In this document: positions 5,217 through 35,799 of the stretch, in pieces | Numbering within the stretch: the first letter of the stretch is position 1 | Layout of the letters: the number at the start of each line of letters is the position of its first letter | Source of the DNA: an uncultured Ilumatobacter sp. | GTDB taxonomy: Bacteria > Actinomycetota > Acidimicrobiia > Acidimicrobiales > Ilumatobacteraceae | Length of the DNA stretch: 37,994 bases | Assembly (NCBI GenBank): GCA_938044705.1 | Contig: CALIOL010000158.1 | Span: 1 to 37,994 of the forward strand | Direction of reading: 5' to 3' | Notes under the pieces: generated by a model | What the model was told of the DNA's origin: nothing | The model's database searches: none | What the model saw: only the letters and a program-made list of their open reading frames with translations | Position numbers and translations under genes: made by a program

Positions 5217-7343
5217 ATGAGCATCGATGAACGCCCGGCCGTGCGCACCGTGCACGGGGCGTGCCACCACGACTGCCCTGACTCGTGCGGCTGGACCGTG
5301 ACCGTCGAAGACCGCGCGACCGACCATGGCATCGAGCCCGTTGCCGTCAAGCTCCGCGGCAACCCGGAGCATCCGTTCTCTCAGGGCGAACTGTGCCCGA
5401 AGGTCAACCGCTTCCTCGACCGGGTCAACAGCCCCGACAGGATCCTGCGCCCGATGCGCCGGGTCGGCCCGAAGGGTTCCGGCGAATTCGAGACCATCAC
5501 GTGGGACGACGCGCTCGACGAGATCGGCCAGCGCTTGAACGACGTCATCGAGACGCACGGAGCCGAAGCACTCCTCCCCTACTCCGACGCCGGCAATCAG
5601 AGCCTGCTGTCGATGTTCGGCGCCGGCGGCCGCTTCTTCAACCACCTCGGCGCGACGCAGTTGACCCGCGCCCTTTGTGGCGTCGTCGTCGGTGCGGGAA
5701 TGTCGATGACCAACGGCACCGGCGCCAGCCTCGAAGCCACCGAGATGGTCCACTCGAACCTGATCGTGCTGTGGGGAACCAACACGAGGCTCACCAACCG
5801 GCACCTCTGGCCCACGATCGAGGAGGCCCGAGCGAATGGGGCACGCATCGTGGTGATCGACCCGATCCGGACACTCACCGCAGACGCCGTCGACGCCGAG
5901 CGCGGTGATCAGTTCATCCAGCCCCTCCCTGGCACCGACATCGCGATGATGCTCGCGATGATGCACGTCATCATCCGCGACGACCTCCACGACACCGACT
6001 GGGTCGCAGAGCACACACTCGGGTTCGACGAACTCCGCGACGGCGTCGCCGACTGGACGCCGCAGCGAGCAGCCGAGATCTGCGGTGTCGACGCTGCGCT
6101 GATCGAAGGCTTTGCACGCGATGTAGCCACCACTCCCGGCACGGCGCTGCGCACGCTCATCGGCCCCGAGCACCACGAGAACGGTGCGATGTTCTTCCGC
6201 ACGCTCGCGTGCCTCCCTGCGCTCACCGGCGCATGGCGTCACCGCGGTGGTGGCATGTCGCGCAGCGTCGGGTTCTGGACCGAAGGCCAGATCGACTTCG
6301 GTGCGCTCAACCGCCCCGACCTGCTCGGTGACGCCGCCCCGCGCACCGTCAACATGAGCCGCCTGGGCGAGGTCCTGACGACGATGGACGACATCGAGCA
6401 CTCGCCGATTCACGCGATGATCGTGTGGAACTGCAATCCGCTCGTCACCGTTCCCAACGCCGAGCTCACTCGACGCGGCCTCGAGCGTGATGACCTCTTC
6501 ACCGTCGTCCACGAACAGTTCCTGACCGACACCGCCCGCTACGCCGACATCGTGCTGCCGGCGACCACCCAGATCGAGGCCGACGACATCGTGTTCCCCT
6601 GGGGCCATCTGTGGGTCGCGTACAACCAGGCCGCGGTCCAACCAATGGGCGAGGCCTGCAACAACACCGAGTTGTTCCGACGGATCAGCGCCGCCATGGG
6701 GCTCGAAGAACCCTCGTTGTTCGACGACGACGAGACACTGATGCGATCTGCTCTTCCCACGATCGACATCGACGAACTTCGCAGCGAACAGTGGATCCGA
6801 GCCCCGTACCCAGAAGACGGACGGCCGTTCGGCGATCCCGACGGCGCAACGCCGGTGCCCACTGCGTCGGGTCGGGTCGAATTCGCATCGGATGCGCTCG
6901 AAGCGCTCGGTCAACCCCGAGTGCCCGCCTTCGTCCAACCGAAAGAAAGCCTCGGCGGTGCCAGCGAGTTGGCGACGCGGTTCCCCATGCAACTGCTCAC
7001 GCCGAAGCACCACGCGCGGTTCCTCAACTCCAGCTATGCGCAGCTCCCCAAACACGGCCCCGCCGAAGGCACGCCGTTCGTCGAACTCTGTGCCGCAGAC
7101 GCAGCGGCGCGCAACTTGTGCGAAGGCGATGTCGCGACCGTGCACAACGACCGAGCTTCCATCGAGGTCCAGGTCAAGGTGACCGACCGGATGCGTCCCG
7201 GCGTCGCTGCCGTTCCCTTCGGTTGGTGGGGCACACATCACCGAGATGGCAAGGTCGCCAACTCCCTGACCAGCGACACGCTCACCGACTGGGGTGGCGG
7301 TGTGGCCTACAGCGACACACTCGTCGAGATCTCCGGTGCCTGA
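5217..7343 (+). CDS. Molybdopterin-dependent oxidoreductase, DMSO-reductase superfamily
   Basis: This is a 708-residue protein with an N-terminal [4Fe-4S] site: CHHDCPDSC at about residues 18-26, with a fourth Cys in GELCPKV. It continues with the bis-MGD domains (WDDALDEIGQRL; NLIVLWGTNTRLTNRHLWP; IVVIDPIRT; WNCNPLVTVPNAEL; VVHEQFLTDTARYADIVLPATTQIE) and ends with the C-terminal MGD-binding barrel (LTPKHHARFLNSSY; CEGDVATVHNDR). There is no Tat signal, so it is probably cytoplasmic. The molybdenum ligand and the substrate cannot be assigned; formate, sulfoxide or polysulfide-type activities are all possible. The frame extends to 4494 but that part is antisense to the phosphatase. AzlC starts three bases after the stop. 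Confidence 0.85.
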   Translation: MSIDERPAVRTVHGACHHDCPDSCGWTVTVEDRATDHGIEPVAVKLRGNPEHPFSQGELCPKVNRFLDRVNSPDRILRPMRRVGPKGSGEFETITWDDALDEIGQRLNDVIETHGAEALLPYSDAGNQSLLSMFGAGGRFFNHLGATQLTRALCGVVVGAGMSMTNGTGASLEATEMVHSNLIVLWGTNTRLTNRHLWPTIEEARANGARIVVIDPIRTLTADAVDAERGDQFIQPLPGTDIAMMLAMMHVIIRDDLHDTDWVAEHTLGFDELRDGVADWTPQRAAEICGVDAALIEGFARDVATTPGTALRTLIGPEHHENGAMFFRTLACLPALTGAWRHRGGGMSRSVGFWTEGQIDFGALNRPDLLGDAAPRTVNMSRLGEVLTTMDDIEHSPIHAMIVWNCNPLVTVPNAELTRRGLERDDLFTVVHEQFLTDTARYADIVLPATTQIEADDIVFPWGHLWVAYNQAAVQPMGEACNNTELFRRISAAMGLEEPSLFDDDETLMRSALPTIDIDELRSEQWIRAPYPEDGRPFGDPDGATPVPTASGRVEFASDALEALGQPRVPAFVQPKESLGGASELATRFPMQLLTPKHHARFLNSSYAQLPKHGPAEGTPFVELCAADAAARNLCEGDVATVHNDRASIEVQVKVTDRMRPGVAAVPFGWWGTHHRDGKVANSLTSDTLTDWGGGVAYSDTLVEISGA

Positions 7344-14101: not shown

Positions 14102-16561
<2,460 letters not shown>

Positions 16562-30913: not shown

Positions 30914-31007
30914 GCGCGTGAGGTCGAGGTGAACAGTTGTCAACCTCAAGTGATTCGCGCGCTCCGCGCGTACGACTTGCATCAACCCTGACGTTTCGCG
31001 TTGGTTG

Positions 31008-31026
31008 CCTGAAGATGTCCTTCAGG
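31008..31026. terminator. Hairpin in the parB-cwlM convergent gap
   Basis: CCTGAAG (31008-31014) and CTTCAGG (31020-31026) form a perfect seven-base stem with loop ATGTC. A third stem, CACACAG (31031-31037) with CTGTGTG (31061-31067), follows. Together with 30875-30913 they may act as a bidirectional terminator cluster. No ORF is supported in 30844-31093. Confidence 0.4.
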
Positions 31027-31051
31027 GAAACACACAGACTGGGGAAAGACC

Positions 31052-31060
31052 TGTGGATAA
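31052..31060 (-). promoter_or_regulatory. Perfect DnaA box (TTATCCACA) downstream of parB
   Basis: TGTGGATAA on the plus strand is TTATCCACA on the minus strand, the E. coli consensus box. It is isolated, about 6 kb from dnaA, in the non-coding parB-cwlM gap. Confidence 0.5.
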
Positions 31061-31093
31061 CTGTGTGCCGGGTGGTCTGACCAGGGGAAACAG

Positions 31094-32083
31094 TCAGTCG
31101 ACAGATGGTCGAACCATGGCGCCGGTGGCGTTCATCGGTGCGTGACTCCACGCAGCGACCGCTCGCGTGACGGCCTCGCTCAGCCGATTTGTGCGATCGA
31201 CGACACTTCGCACCGGACCGACCGTGCACAGAACTGCGGGCATCCGGGTTTCACGAAGCACGGGCAGCCGCATGCCGGCGAGCTCTGGTCGAGACTCGAG
31301 GACGCCGTCGAGTTCGTCGACGATGTGAGAAGCGAGGACGCGTCCTCCGATGGACTCGAACGACGGCACGGCAAAGTAGGAGATGATCGAACACTCGGCG
31401 GGATGCGCATCGAAGCCGACGTAGGCATTGGCGCCGAACCGGTTTGCCGCAGCGGCCTGTGCCGGTGCTTCGTATTCGTCGGTGGACATGACCGATGCGC
31501 CTCGTTCACGCAGGGTTCGAGCAACCGTGCGGGTGATCGAGCTCAGACCGCCGAACTGGCCGACCACGAGTCGAAGTCCGTCGATCGACGACGGGCCACT
31601 GCGCGCTTCGGACTCGCGAATCGATGCGACACCCGGACCAGAACCGCTCTTTTCGCTGACGAGGCGCAGGGTGCGAACGGTGTGAGCACCACAAATGCCG
31701 TCCGATGCCAGACCGGAGTTGCGTTGGAAGTCGGCAACCGCACGAGCAGCCAGCGGTCCGAAGATGCCATCTGGTCGGCCGCAATCGAACCCGACGTGAT
31801 TGAGTGAACGCTGCAGCTCGGCAACATCGTCGCCGCGAAGCATCGGGGCGTTGAGCATGAGGAGCCGGTCACCGAGATCCCATCCGGCTTCGATCAGTGC
31901 CAGCCAGGTCGACTCGTCGCAGCTTCCGCTCACGAGCACGCCGCGCTGCTCTTGGAATGACGTCACCAGCTGTGCGGTGACATCACAAAAGACACCGGCC
32001 TCGGCGCCAGCCGGATCGAATCCGGCGGCACCGAGGCGGCGTTGAAGGTCTCGGATGGCCTCGCCGCGTTGGCCGCAGGTCAG
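31094..32083 (-). CDS. cwlM: CwlM-like peptidoglycan-binding pseudo-amidase
   Basis: This protein has two peptidoglycan-binding repeats (CGQRGEAIRDLQRRLGAAGF and LRGDDVAELQRSLNHVGF), then an Amidase_3-like domain from GLRLVVGQFGG. Zinc and catalytic residues look lost: GQFGG stands where active enzymes have PGHGG, and AVLCTVG stands where they have a catalytic Glu. Mycobacterial CwlM, in the same trxA-adjacent place, also looks inactive and regulates MurA. The first normal start, GTG 31966, would remove the first repeat. The conserved frame runs back to CTG 32083, which overlaps the trxA stop as CTGA, so I place the start there (329 residues). Confidence 0.8.
   Translation of the reverse strand: MTCGQRGEAIRDLQRRLGAAGFDPAGAEAGVFCDVTAQLVTSFQEQRGVLVSGSCDESTWLALIEAGWDLGDRLLMLNAPMLRGDDVAELQRSLNHVGFDCGRPDGIFGPLAARAVADFQRNSGLASDGICGAHTVRTLRLVSEKSGSGPGVASIRESEARSGPSSIDGLRLVVGQFGGLSSITRTVARTLRERGASVMSTDEYEAPAQAAAANRFGANAYVGFDAHPAECSIISYFAVPSFESIGGRVLASHIVDELDGVLESRPELAGMRLPVLRETRMPAVLCTVGPVRSVVDRTNRLSEAVTRAVAAWSHAPMNATGAMVRPSVD
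31464..31507 (+). repeat. 44-bp inverted repeat, copy inside cwlM
   Basis: This segment of cwlM (encoding ERGASVMSTDEYEAP on the minus strand) matches the reverse complement of 32507-32550 at 41 of 44 positions, with a 25-bp perfect core. See the partner copy in the trxB-trxA spacer. Confidence 0.9.
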
Positions 32084-32415
32084 TGGGAAGTGGCCAGGAA
32101 TCCGTCGATCTCCTCGAGCAGGGCACCCTTGCTCTTGGCGCCGGTGATGCGCCCGACGACTTCACCCTTGTCGAACACGATGAGTGTCGGGATCGACATG
32201 ACGCTGTACTTCATCGCGATGTCCGGGTTGTCATCCACGTTCAGCTTGGTGATCGCAAGCTCGTCGCGCTCACCTGCGATTTCACCCAGGATCGGAGCGA
32301 TCTTCTTGCAGGGTCCGCACCACTCCGCCCAGAAGTCGACGACGACTGGGCCATCTGCACCAGCCACCGCTTCGTCGAAGGTTGCGGTGGAGAGATCGGT
32401 GATTCCGTTTGCCAT
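32080..32415 (-). CDS. trxA: Thioredoxin
   Basis: This 111-residue disulfide reductase has the active site WCGPCK (Cys33, Cys36) in VVDFWAEWCGPCKKIAP, the structural cis-proline loop MSIPTLIVF and the usual length. ATG 32415 has AGGA about 10 bases upstream; the frame is open to 32667 but that part is spacer. Its stop overlaps the proposed CTG start of cwlM. TrxB, its reductase, lies 197 bp upstream in the same orientation. Confidence 0.96.
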   Translation of the reverse strand: MANGITDLSTATFDEAVAGADGPVVVDFWAEWCGPCKKIAPILGEIAGERDELAITKLNVDDNPDIAMKYSVMSIPTLIVFDKGEVVGRITGAKSKGALLEEIDGFLATSH

Positions 32416-32612
32416 TGTTCTTGGTCCTTTCGAGGGCTTCGACCCAGTACAACCGGACGGTGAGGAGTCGCATTCCCGGAGATCGACTGTACTCAACCAA
32501 ACGATCGAACGACGCGCATCGGTCATGTCCACCGACGAGCACGAAGCACCAGCCGGCAATGATCGAAGACGCAGCTCACTGCCCGTCGCTCGACCAGCCG
32601 GAAAGCGTTGGA
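32416..32612 (-). other. trxB-trxA spacer containing an inverted cwlM fragment
   Basis: This 197-bp gap is unusually long for neighbouring trxB-trxA genes. Apart from the 44-bp inverted cwlM-like segment it contains no ORF with a recognisable product. A trxA promoter may lie here but I cannot point to it. Confidence 0.5.
32507..32550 (-). repeat. 44-bp inverted repeat, copy in the trxB-trxA spacer
   Basis: This is the reverse complement of cwlM 31464-31507 with three mismatches. Its plus strand would encode ERRASVMSTDEHEAP, nearly the same peptide as in cwlM. On a trxB-trxA-cwlM transcript the two copies are complementary and about 1 kb apart. Confidence 0.9.
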
Positions 32613-33584
32613 TTACGCGTCGTGCTGGTCTTCGAGCCAGCGCTCGGCGTCGATCGCAGCCATGCAACCGCTGCCGGCAGCGGTGATTGCCTGGCGGTAG
32701 ACCGAGTCCTTGACGTCACCGCAGGCGAACACGCCGGGGATGTTGGTGTAGGTCGAGTCGGGGCGAGTGATCAGGTAGCCGGTGCTCTCGTCCATGTCGA
32801 GCACGCCGCGGAACAGGTCGGTGTTCGGCTTGTGGCCGATCGCGATGAACAGCCCGGTCACATCGAGCACGCCGGTCTCGCCGGTCACGTTGTTGACGAT
32901 GTCGACGCTCTCGACCTTGTCCGCACCGTTGACTTCGGTGACCGACGTGTTCCACAGGAACTCGATCTTCGGGTTGGCCTTGGCGCGATCCTGCATGATC
33001 GCCGATGCGCGCAGCTCGTCGCGACGCACGATGACGGTGACCTTGTCGGCGAACTTCGTGAGGAAGCTCGCCTCTTCGAGTGCCGAGTCGCCTCCTCCGA
33101 CGACGGCGATCTCGTGGCCGCGGAAGAAGAACCCGTCGCACGTGGCGCAGGTGGACAATCCGTGGCCGATGAGGCGTTCCTCGGCTTCGAGACCCAGCAT
33201 CAGGGACTGGGCGCCGGTCGAGACGATGACCGAGTTGGCCTTGTACGTGGCTTCGCGAGTGGTCACGGTGAACGGCCGCTCGCTGAAGTCGATGGCGCTG
33301 GCCTTCTCGGTCTTGATGATCGTGCCGAACCGCTCGGCCTGTGCACGCATCTCATCCATCAACTCGGGGCCCATGATGCCGTCACGGAAGCCGGGGAAGT
33401 TCTCGACCTCGGTGGTGAGCATCAGCTGACCGCCGGGCTGGTCCGAGGTGGAGGACGGCTCGCCTTCGATCATCAGCGGCGTCAGGTTGGCGCGTGCGGT
33501 GTAGATCGCGGCGGTGAGCCCTGCTGGGCCCGAACCCACGATGACGACGTCGTGAATCGTGTCGGTGCTGCTGGTGTCGGTCAT
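32613..33584 (-). CDS. trxB: Thioredoxin reductase
   Basis: This 323-residue FAD/NADPH enzyme recharges thioredoxin. FAD motif VVIVGSGPAGLTAAIYTAR (about 13-31), redox pair CATC (Cys146, Cys149) in STCATCDGFFF, NADPH motif VVGGGDSALEEA, and the closing FAD motif GVFACGDVKD are all present. ATG 33584 has GGAG about six bases upstream. Followed by trxA and cwlM, it matches the mycobacterial trxB2-trxC-cwlM order. Confidence 0.97.
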   Translation of the reverse strand: MTDTSSTDTIHDVVIVGSGPAGLTAAIYTARANLTPLMIEGEPSSTSDQPGGQLMLTTEVENFPGFRDGIMGPELMDEMRAQAERFGTIIKTEKASAIDFSERPFTVTTREATYKANSVIVSTGAQSLMLGLEAEERLIGHGLSTCATCDGFFFRGHEIAVVGGGDSALEEASFLTKFADKVTVIVRRDELRASAIMQDRAKANPKIEFLWNTSVTEVNGADKVESVDIVNNVTGETGVLDVTGLFIAIGHKPNTDLFRGVLDMDESTGYLITRPDSTYTNIPGVFACGDVKDSVYRQAITAAGSGCMAAIDAERWLEDQHDA

Positions 33585-33719
33585 GTCGGGCTCCGTGTTC
33601 GGCGAGGGTGGGCAGGCAGCAGTGTGCTGCGCTGATCTTGCAGAGAAGTGAACGCTCGCTGTCGCGTCGGCATTCCCGTGTGCCGGGCGGTCACCGGTTG
33701 GCGGGGGTCGTGCGGTCGA

Positions 33720-34049
33720 TCAGACGGCGCCGGACGAGTCGTTGCGCTTCTTGAAGAGCACGAGCCCGACGATGCTCAGAAGGCCACCGACGATGAAGTA
33801 GCTGATGTACACCGCTCGAGCCTGGTCGAGCGCCGGCTCGATCGCTGCTTGCAGACCACGAGTGAGTCCGACGAGCAGCAGCACGAGTGCGAAGAGACCG
33901 AGGAAGATGGCGAGCAGTCCGAACACGAGACCACGCGCTGCCATCACCGCAGGCTTGGTGGTCTTCGCCTTGACATTGTCGACGAGCTTGACGACCTGTT
34001 CGGTCGTACTTTCAGCCCAGTTCGGGTCGGTGAGCGGGTTGCCAGCCAT
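33720..34049 (-). CDS. Small two-helix membrane protein
   Basis: This 109-residue protein has two membrane helices: about 41-63 (ARGLVFGLLAIFLGLFALVLLLVGL) and about 81-98 (YISYFIVGGLLSIVGLVLF), with an acidic, polar N-terminus containing VVKLVDNVKAKTTKPAV. It resembles small phage-holin-like or DUF-type actinobacterial membrane proteins; I do not recognise a precise family. TAACCT lies eight bases before ATG 34049, a possible leaderless -10. It sits between trxB and the anti-sigma gene in the same orientation. Confidence 0.65.
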   Translation of the reverse strand: MAGNPLTDPNWAESTTEQVVKLVDNVKAKTTKPAVMAARGLVFGLLAIFLGLFALVLLLVGLTRGLQAAIEPALDQARAVYISYFIVGGLLSIVGLVLFKKRNDSSGAV

Positions 34050-34099: not shown

Positions 34100-35149
34100 T
34101 CAGGGTTGCGTGGTCGGCGTCGGCGGCAACGGCACGGACTCGACGACCGTGCAGTCGGAGGTGTAGGCGTACACGATGTCGCGGACGAGATCGACGCCGA
34201 CCTCGACGTCCTCACCTTGGTAGCGGGCAGGCTCGAGGCGCTCCTGAATGTCCAACTCGGCTTCGCAGGTGTCGCTGGGAGCTTCGAAGTCGACGTCGAC
34301 AGTGTTCACTGCGCCTTCGTTGATCGCAACGACGATGAGCGACCCGTAGTCGGCCAGGTCGTCCGGTGTCGCCAGGTCGACTCGGGCGATTTCGGCGGCG
34401 GGAGGGGGCTGGGCCGCCGGTCCGGATTCGGCTGCTTCATCCGCGGACTCCTCGGCTTCTTCCATGGCGTCTGCTTCGAAGAGGCCGCCGTCCACCTCGC
34501 CGTCGGGGTCGGCCTGTGCTTCGTCGGCAATCGACTCGGGGTCGTCGACGCTGAGGTCGGTCCCGACGTTCTCGCCGGCGACCTCTGCGGCTTCGTTGGC
34601 CTCGACTTCGCTGAGCTCGGCGCTGTCGTCGGCGGCCTGTTCGATCGCGACATCGTTGTTGTCCGGCTCGGCGTCGAGAATGCCTCGCACCACGGCAGCC
34701 GCGCCAGCGACCACCACGAGGGCCGCTGCTGCACCGAGGAGCCACTGCGACGCACCGAAGGACCCGGTGCGCTTGGACCTGTTCCGACCGCCGCGGGCAC
34801 GGCGACCTTCGGACGTGGAGACCGGCGTGATGACGGCTGCCGCCGCCGCTGCGTCGACGCCGGCAGCGGGCGTTGCTTCGCCCAGGCGCTCGAGATCCGA
34901 CATGCGTTCCCACACGTCGAGCGCTGCTGCCAAGTGGCCTTCGCGTTCGGACAACGATGCGGTCGGGGCCGTGGCAGCGAGCACGGTGCGGACCTGAGAG
35001 AACGATTCGACGTCGCCGAGCACCTCTGGGCTGGTCTCGACGAGGGCGCGCTCGTCGGGCGCTGCCTCGCCATCGAGATACGCGCTGGCCAGCAGCGAGT
35101 TCTCGTGCACCGCTTCGTCGGGTGCCGTGTCGTCGGTGTCGTCACTCAT
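34100..35149 (-). CDS. Membrane-anchored anti-sigma factor-like protein
   Basis: This 349-residue protein starts at an ATG that overlaps the sigma-factor stop (ATGA), the usual sigma/anti-sigma coupling. Residues 18-38 (NSLLASAYLDGEAAPDERALV) resemble the anti-sigma N-domain helix, but no zinc-binding HxxxCxxC is present. One membrane helix is at about 131-152 (WLLGAAAALVVVAGAAAVV). The outer part has an acidic Glu/Ala-rich linker (about 155-245) and a C-terminal region with two cysteines (SDTCEAELD, TSDCTVVES) that could form a disulfide. Mycobacterial RsmA (Rv3912) occupies this place; the sequence itself is divergent. Confidence 0.75.
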   Translation of the reverse strand: MSDDTDDTAPDEAVHENSLLASAYLDGEAAPDERALVETSPEVLGDVESFSQVRTVLAATAPTASLSEREGHLAAALDVWERMSDLERLGEATPAAGVDAAAAAAVITPVSTSEGRRARGGRNRSKRTGSFGASQWLLGAAAALVVVAGAAAVVRGILDAEPDNNDVAIEQAADDSAELSEVEANEAAEVAGENVGTDLSVDDPESIADEAQADPDGEVDGGLFEADAMEEAEESADEAAESGPAAQPPPAAEIARVDLATPDDLADYGSLIVVAINEGAVNTVDVDFEAPSDTCEAELDIQERLEPARYQGEDVEVGVDLVRDIVYAYTSDCTVVESVPLPPTPTTQP

Positions 35150-35799
35150 GTCAGATCTGTTGGACGCTCGAAGTCCCCTGTTCGGTTCCCGATCTCGCGA
35201 GAAGTTTCCGATGTGACCTCCGCCACCAGATCGGGATGCTCATCGAGTCGAAGCTCGTTGGCGAGCATCTTTCGTCCGCGAGCAATCCGCGATTTCACCG
35301 TGCCCACAGGAACGTCGAGCACATCGGCGATCTCTGCGTAGTCCAGGTCGCCGACATCGCGCAGCACGACGGCAGCGCGGAACTCCTCGGGAAGTTCCGC
35401 CAGCGCGCCGTCGATCGCGAGTCGGTCGGCGATTGCTTCGACGCGGCGTCCGGCCAGATCATCGATCGGTTCGAGGGTGATCTCGCCGGAGTCGTCGTCG
35501 CGCACCATGGCCAGCGTCGGGCGACGCTTGCGTTTGCGGAGCTCGTCGAGCGCGGCGTTCGTGGCGATGCGGTACGCCCATGTGCCGAACGACGACCGTC
35601 CGTCGAACCGCGGCAGGTTCCGCACGATCTTGATCAGCGCTTCCTGGGTGGCGTCGTCGGCATCGCGAGTGGTGCCAGCGATGCGCTTCGTCACCGCGTG
35701 GATGCGGTCGTAGTGACGACGCAACAGCTGGTCGAGCGCGAAGCGGTCACCGGCTCGCGCAGCTTCGATCAGCTCGAGGTCATCGGTCTGGACGGCGAT
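35146..35799 (-). CDS. ECF RNA polymerase sigma factor (SigM-like position)
   Basis: Region 2 reads LIEAARAGDRFALDQLLRRHYDRIHAVTKRI through DADDATQEALIKIVRNLPRFDGRSSFGTWAYRIATNAALDELRK; region 4 reads LPEEFRAAVVLRDVGDLDYAEIADVLDVPVGTVKSRIARGRKML. The first normal start (TTG 35724) would cut into region 2.1. The conserved frame continues upstream without ATG, GTG or TTG; an ATC at 35799 would give MAVQTDDLELIEAARAGDR and has TACAGT six bases upstream, so I tentatively start there (217 residues). CTG 35772 is another option. The gene precedes its anti-sigma and follows the kinase by about 70 bp, as sigM follows mviN in mycobacteria. Confidence 0.85.
   Translation of the reverse strand: MAVQTDDLELIEAARAGDRFALDQLLRRHYDRIHAVTKRIAGTTRDADDATQEALIKIVRNLPRFDGRSSFGTWAYRIATNAALDELRKRKRRPTLAMVRDDDSGEITLEPIDDLAGRRVEAIADRLAIDGALAELPEEFRAAVVLRDVGDLDYAEIADVLDVPVGTVKSRIARGRKMLANELRLDEHPDLVAEVTSETSREIGNRTGDFERPTDLT

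Follow-up and report, generated by a model that had tools for sequence, protein, structure and literature searches.

Template switching creates reverse-complement copies of DNA, and the footprints described for it are short reverse-complement copies of nearby DNA, found in one lineage and able to pair with their source (PMC8794818). Control of cwlM at the RNA level, downstream of the thioredoxin genes, is described in mycobacteria, where an IRE-like element of the cwlM transcript is bound by aconitase (PMC7527780). A third point of comparison is given by the promoters of SigR in Streptomyces and of SigH in Mycobacterium and Corynebacterium; the consensus of S. coelicolor SigR reads GGGAAT(G/C)-16 nt-(C/G)GTTG (PMC3489674). 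Among the matches listed from open-licence papers, none concerned the trxB-trxA spacer described here.

We analyzed a stretch of 37,994 nucleotides of an Ilumatobacter genome, hereafter the window, in which a piece of a cwlM-like gene is found a second time, inverted, in the spacer between trxB and trxA. We consider it highly probable that the pair arose in one lineage by inverted micro-duplication of cwlM DNA, most likely through a template switch, and that the copy has no selected function. The pair resembles the described footprints in its shortness, in its presence in one lineage and in its ability to pair, but its arms stand 1 kb apart and its junctions show no clear microhomology. Unlike the mycobacterial IRE-like element, which is a local hairpin at cwlM codons 14-22, the arm in the cwlM-like protein begins near residue 191 of a 327-residue reading and would need its partner from 1 kb away. 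The element in front of trxA (GGGAATG-16 nt-GGTTG, 32477-32450) fits the S. coelicolor SigR consensus; it differs from the described promoters in standing directly before trxA and downstream of trxB, and its use by a sigma factor of this type is predicted.

Genomes and Loci Compared

The genome containing the window (G000) is a draft of 3,882,386 bases in 369 contigs, 81.85% complete. The cwlM-like protein was found in 53 of the 60 genomes searched, and 30 loci around it, our own included, were compared. The 13 named loci that matched it belong mostly to Ilumatobacter species and bins, the top one being Ilumatobacter nonamiensis with 77% identity. Nine other genomes were available for the genus, of which G005 was left out because its locus is cut, leaving eight genus relatives (G001-G004, G006-G009). 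The spacer comparison started from 34 relatives' loci, four of them without a readable trxB, and thus covered 30 readable spacers. In this set L034-L041 stand in for L004-L006 and L008-L012 of the same genomes, and L073-L076, L079 and L081-L083 were omitted since their genomes were judged to be already counted.

Gene Content of the Locus

On the minus strand, a SigM-like ECF sigma factor, a 349-aa protein, a small protein, trxB, trxA and the cwlM-like gene follow one another in this order (Table 1), and the shared strand of the last three agrees with the original prediction. No family matched the 349-aa protein, and the small protein ahead of trxB gave a sub-threshold holin-X match. Beyond the cwlM-like gene, on the plus strand, lie frames that we take to resemble parA and parB. 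The name cwlM-like was given because of gene order, namely the place beside trxB-trxA. At E 0.001, PG_binding_1 was the only domain found in this protein and no amidase domain was detected; PDB sequences matched it at E 0.04 or better in 15 cases, each time inside residues 80-145.

Table 1. Coordinates of the genes, arms and promoter motifs of the locus (positions of the window).
Feature	Position	Strand	Remark
SigM-like ECF sigma factor	35146-35724	-	best NCBIfam match SigM, below its cut-off
Second SigR/SigH-type motif, upstream of trxB	33651..33677	-	
trxB, thioredoxin reductase	32613..33584	-	TIGR01292 over cut-off
Derived arm, inverted copy in trxB-trxA spacer	32507..32553	+	43/47 matching
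25-bp perfect core of spacer copy	32514..32538	+	partner 31476-31500
SigR/SigH-type motif GGGAAT-N18-GTT before trxA	32451..32477	-	between copy and trxA
trxA, thioredoxin	32080..32415	-	ATG at 32415-32413; TIGR01068 over cut-off
cwlM-like gene	31094..32077	-	two PG_binding_1 stretches; start codon provisional
Source arm in cwlM-like coding sequence	31461..31507	-	encodes ERGASVMSTDEYEAP

Extent and Significance of the Inverted Pair

At their best ungapped extent, the two arms match as reverse complements in 43 of 47 bases and are separated by 999 nt. The 44-bp pair with a 25-bp perfect core that had first been noticed is therefore present and slightly longer than reported. Such a match to nearby DNA exceeds chance: 200 mononucleotide-shuffled spacers compared with the cwlM-like gene gave a mean of 25.6 and a maximum of 30/47. 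When the 25-mer was sought with up to 3 mismatches allowed, the window gave two occurrences and 100 dinucleotide shuffles gave none. The second copy is detected in the draft genome with an E-value of 1.2e-12, and the copies in this 81.85% complete assembly are restricted to these two places.

Past the arm ends the similarity does not clearly extend. The anchored flank scores were equalled by shuffles in 65 of 500 cases on the left and 365 of 500 on the right. A longer, older gapped duplication was also considered, as a looser alignment reaches further left, yet it was rejected on these same flank scores, which fall within the shuffles.

The inverted pair also differs from a mobile or repeated element. 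The arm is self-complementary at 20 of 47 positions and present at two genomic places, which sets it apart from palindromic interspersed repeats of the REP/MITE kind, and an exact search of viral contigs with its 25-mer core found nothing. An arm without self-complementarity and a core without exact viral match are unlike a mobile palindromic repeat, and this explanation was rejected.

Comparison with Relatives

The spacer copy was found in none of the 30 readable relative trxB-trxA spacers when the 47-mer was compared without gaps on either strand. The best 47-base match to the cwlM arm reached 19-26 per relative spacer, against 43 in the window. Also, with inverted pairs of every kind considered, the loci of 29 relatives reach 35.6 bits at most, whereas the pair in the window has 68.0. 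We searched 221 family genomes, our own included, with a 121-base spacer piece, at most about 3 candidates being scored per genome; among the matches listed, the best one outside the own genome spans 36 bases at 83% identity (E-value 6.7e-4), and two of these weak matches (G004, G006) sit in the cwlM-like genes of those genomes.

Within the genus, the trxB-trxA spacer measures about 81-476 nt in the 7 readable members. This variation of length and content is as expected of unconstrained DNA upstream of a promoter. By eye, an ArsC-like reading frame lies between trxB and trxA in the spacer (L037) of G007, a genus genome in one contig. In G002, the closest relative by trxA (92.5%), ArsR-like and SRPBCC-like frames were seen by eye before the trxA promoter motif, in the place of trxB; its contig L075 (1-1800) thus appears rearranged at the same spacer that holds the copy in the window.

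Direction and Proposed Mode of Copying

The coding segment that served as source is conserved in cwlM in all eight genus relatives. From cwlM to the spacer, the four differences between the arms fall at first codon positions (31501, 31474) and at third codon positions (31475, 31463). The first-position differences change GGC to CGC and TAC to CAC, and cwlM of 8/8 genus relatives has a Gly and a Tyr codon at these two places. Since these relatives keep the residues of cwlM at both, it is the spacer copy that has changed, and the cwlM arm is its source. At one third-position difference, GAA in cwlM and GAG in the spacer, five of the eight carry the letter of the spacer, so that cwlM itself may account for some of the divergence; at the other the letter varies among genus relatives. 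A copy specific to the lineage, with an ancestral source, is thus borne out both by the 30 spacers and by the eight relatives, and the duplication from cwlM that had been proposed is upheld on the same two grounds. A hidden gene in the spacer copy was set aside, since the peptide encoded there on the plus strand belongs to a purely mechanical frame that runs opposite trxA.

The most plausible course of events is that about 40-47 bp of cwlM DNA were copied, inverted, into the trxB-trxA spacer about 1 kb away in this Ilumatobacter lineage. This would likely have happened by a replication template switch, in which the nascent strand briefly copies the opposite strand. Template switch during replication would be the simplest route to a reverse-complement copy of nearby DNA, by the mechanism described in PMC8794818. 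The junctions, where flank scores stay within the shuffles and no clear microhomology signature is seen, lend such a switch no support of their own. Its reach of 1 kb would also be long for switches of the quasipalindrome type. Once in the spacer, the copy would have been without selected function and its match to the source would be in the course of being lost. All four changes lie outside the perfect 25-bp core, which could hint at constraint and also fits a recent origin. We see in this pair mainly a clean example of a reverse-complement gene piece seeded in an upstream spacer.

Promoter Motifs

By its sequence, the conserved element of the spacer is a predicted SigR/SigH-type promoter motif before trxA, rather than the inverted copy, from which 29 bases separate it. 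The strict form GGGAAT-N18-GTT has 9 sites in the 3.88 Mb genome, two of which precede trxB and trxA, and the backward control gave 0. The form GGAAT-N17-19-GTT occurs at most 150 bases from trxA in 27 of the 34 relatives' loci, including 8/8 testable genus members, and the seven loci where it is missing are all outside the genus; 200 mononucleotide shuffles gave a mean of 0.105 and a maximum of 1. For trxB, sites were found in six of 10 loci searched. Five of these read, by eye, like the coding end of the upstream small protein, and the trxB motif was therefore not counted as conserved. A sigma factor over the cut-off of TIGR02947 (SigH_actino) is present in the genome. Such a hit was obtained in 3 of 10 genus genomes, and most of the others score just below. 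The inverted copy also draws attention to the motif directly before trxA, which is the conserved spacer element in this actinobacterial group.

Pairing in the Transcript and Alternative Explanations

From the predicted promoter, the trxA RNA would start at about 32443. As the motif lies between the copy and trxA, an RNA started there would be without the spacer copy and would carry the cwlM arm only. The trxB-trxA spacer showed no terminator-like site, and read-through from trxB is thus possible. Between the arms, three overlapping terminator-like sites (shuffle mean 1.3) were scored at 31991-32014, a position within the cwlM-like gene. The idea that one RNA holds both copies may therefore apply to trxB read-through and would not extend to RNA from the predicted trxA promoter. 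The original prediction had also named what would speak against it: a terminator and separate promoters keeping the copies on different RNAs, or absence of the copy in every relative. The copy is absent from all readable spacers of the relatives and a separate promoter is predicted, and no terminator-like site was detected in the spacer.

In the minimum-energy fold of the minus-strand RNA 32640-31400, 40 of the 47 arm bases pair with the other arm, with an in-register mean pair probability of 0.89 and an arm-arm duplex of -92.3 kcal/mol in silico. The arms would thus pair in a read-through RNA, as had been anticipated. This fold says nothing on function, because a 25-bp perfect match pairs in silico whatever its origin, and it is no test of the role proposed for the duplex. 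The case shows that a duplex can be scored as strong by folding programs without any sign of conservation.

These data bear on the possibility that the arms pair in a trxB-trxA-cwlM read-through RNA and that RNase III cutting, or hindered translation of cwlM, tunes the output of cwlM or trxA in this species. The strong computed duplex and the spacer free of terminator-like sites are consistent with it. However, the pairing is conserved in none of the readable spacers, the trxA promoter motif downstream of the copy would yield RNA lacking the spacer arm, and the perfect core would fold regardless of origin. A known RNA family was rejected as well, as no Rfam match at gathering score was obtained in 31000-33800. 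The conserved pairing expected of a regulatory RNA did not appear in the readable spacers; the pair is found in one genome, which leaves no compensatory changes to compare, and each of the four arm differences is unmatched by a change in the other arm. We therefore consider such tuning quite unlikely, and the regulation of cwlM or trxA suggested at first is disfavoured by an unconserved copy that a predicted promoter separates from trxA. An incidental effect of pairing in the trxB read-through RNA of this one species is possible.

An assembly artefact, in which a chimeric join or a mixture of strains put the cwlM piece in the spacer, would agree with the fragmented and incomplete state of the genome and with the absence of the copy in the relatives tested. 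However, four of the 47 arm positions differ, and the copy is internal to a contig of 37994 bases, surrounded by trxB, trxA and cwlM-like frames that are all intact. Also, the sequence TACAGTCGAT (trxA sense, 32482-32491), near the copy, is by eye common to the closest relative G002. An artefact thus appears quite unlikely.

A bolder version of the duplex is that the inverted copy makes the trxB read-through RNA self-silencing: a 47-bp duplex cut by RNase III would uncouple trxA from cwlM, and the SigR-driven RNA would escape. We regard this as very unlikely; if true, a single mutation would have given rise to a species-specific RNA switch, a regulatory pairing caught at birth. That the arms are recombination sites of an invertible switch flipping the trxA segment, as the inverted orientation of the arms, their spacing of 999 nt and their perfect core might suggest, is extremely improbable, since inversion would, from the map, disrupt the cwlM-like gene and reverse trxA plus its promoter, no recombinase is among the six neighbouring proteins scanned, and the arms are absent in the relatives with readable spacers.

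Other Inverted Pairs in the Genus

A scan for inverted pairs of at least 45 bits within 5 kb gave a single pair in G000 (293,801 bases), 10 pairs in G007 (390,181 bases) and, in the window, the one described here. This non-random sample of 683,982 bases represents at most about 18% of both genomes. Among the 11 pairs outside the window, seven were inspected and the remaining four overlap those. In six of the seven, between two thirds and about three quarters of the letters are self-complementary; in the last one this share is 40%, and it looks like two similar coding stretches. A genome-wide habit of making such copies was rejected, as no inspected pair in this sample resembles that of the window. 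In G007, palindromic interspersed repeats were observed at L126 9586-9658 / 14552-14624 and at L137 2047-2120 / 5419-5492. Their related sequence, GTTTCC...GGTCC...GGAAACA, suggests that they may form a REP-like family.
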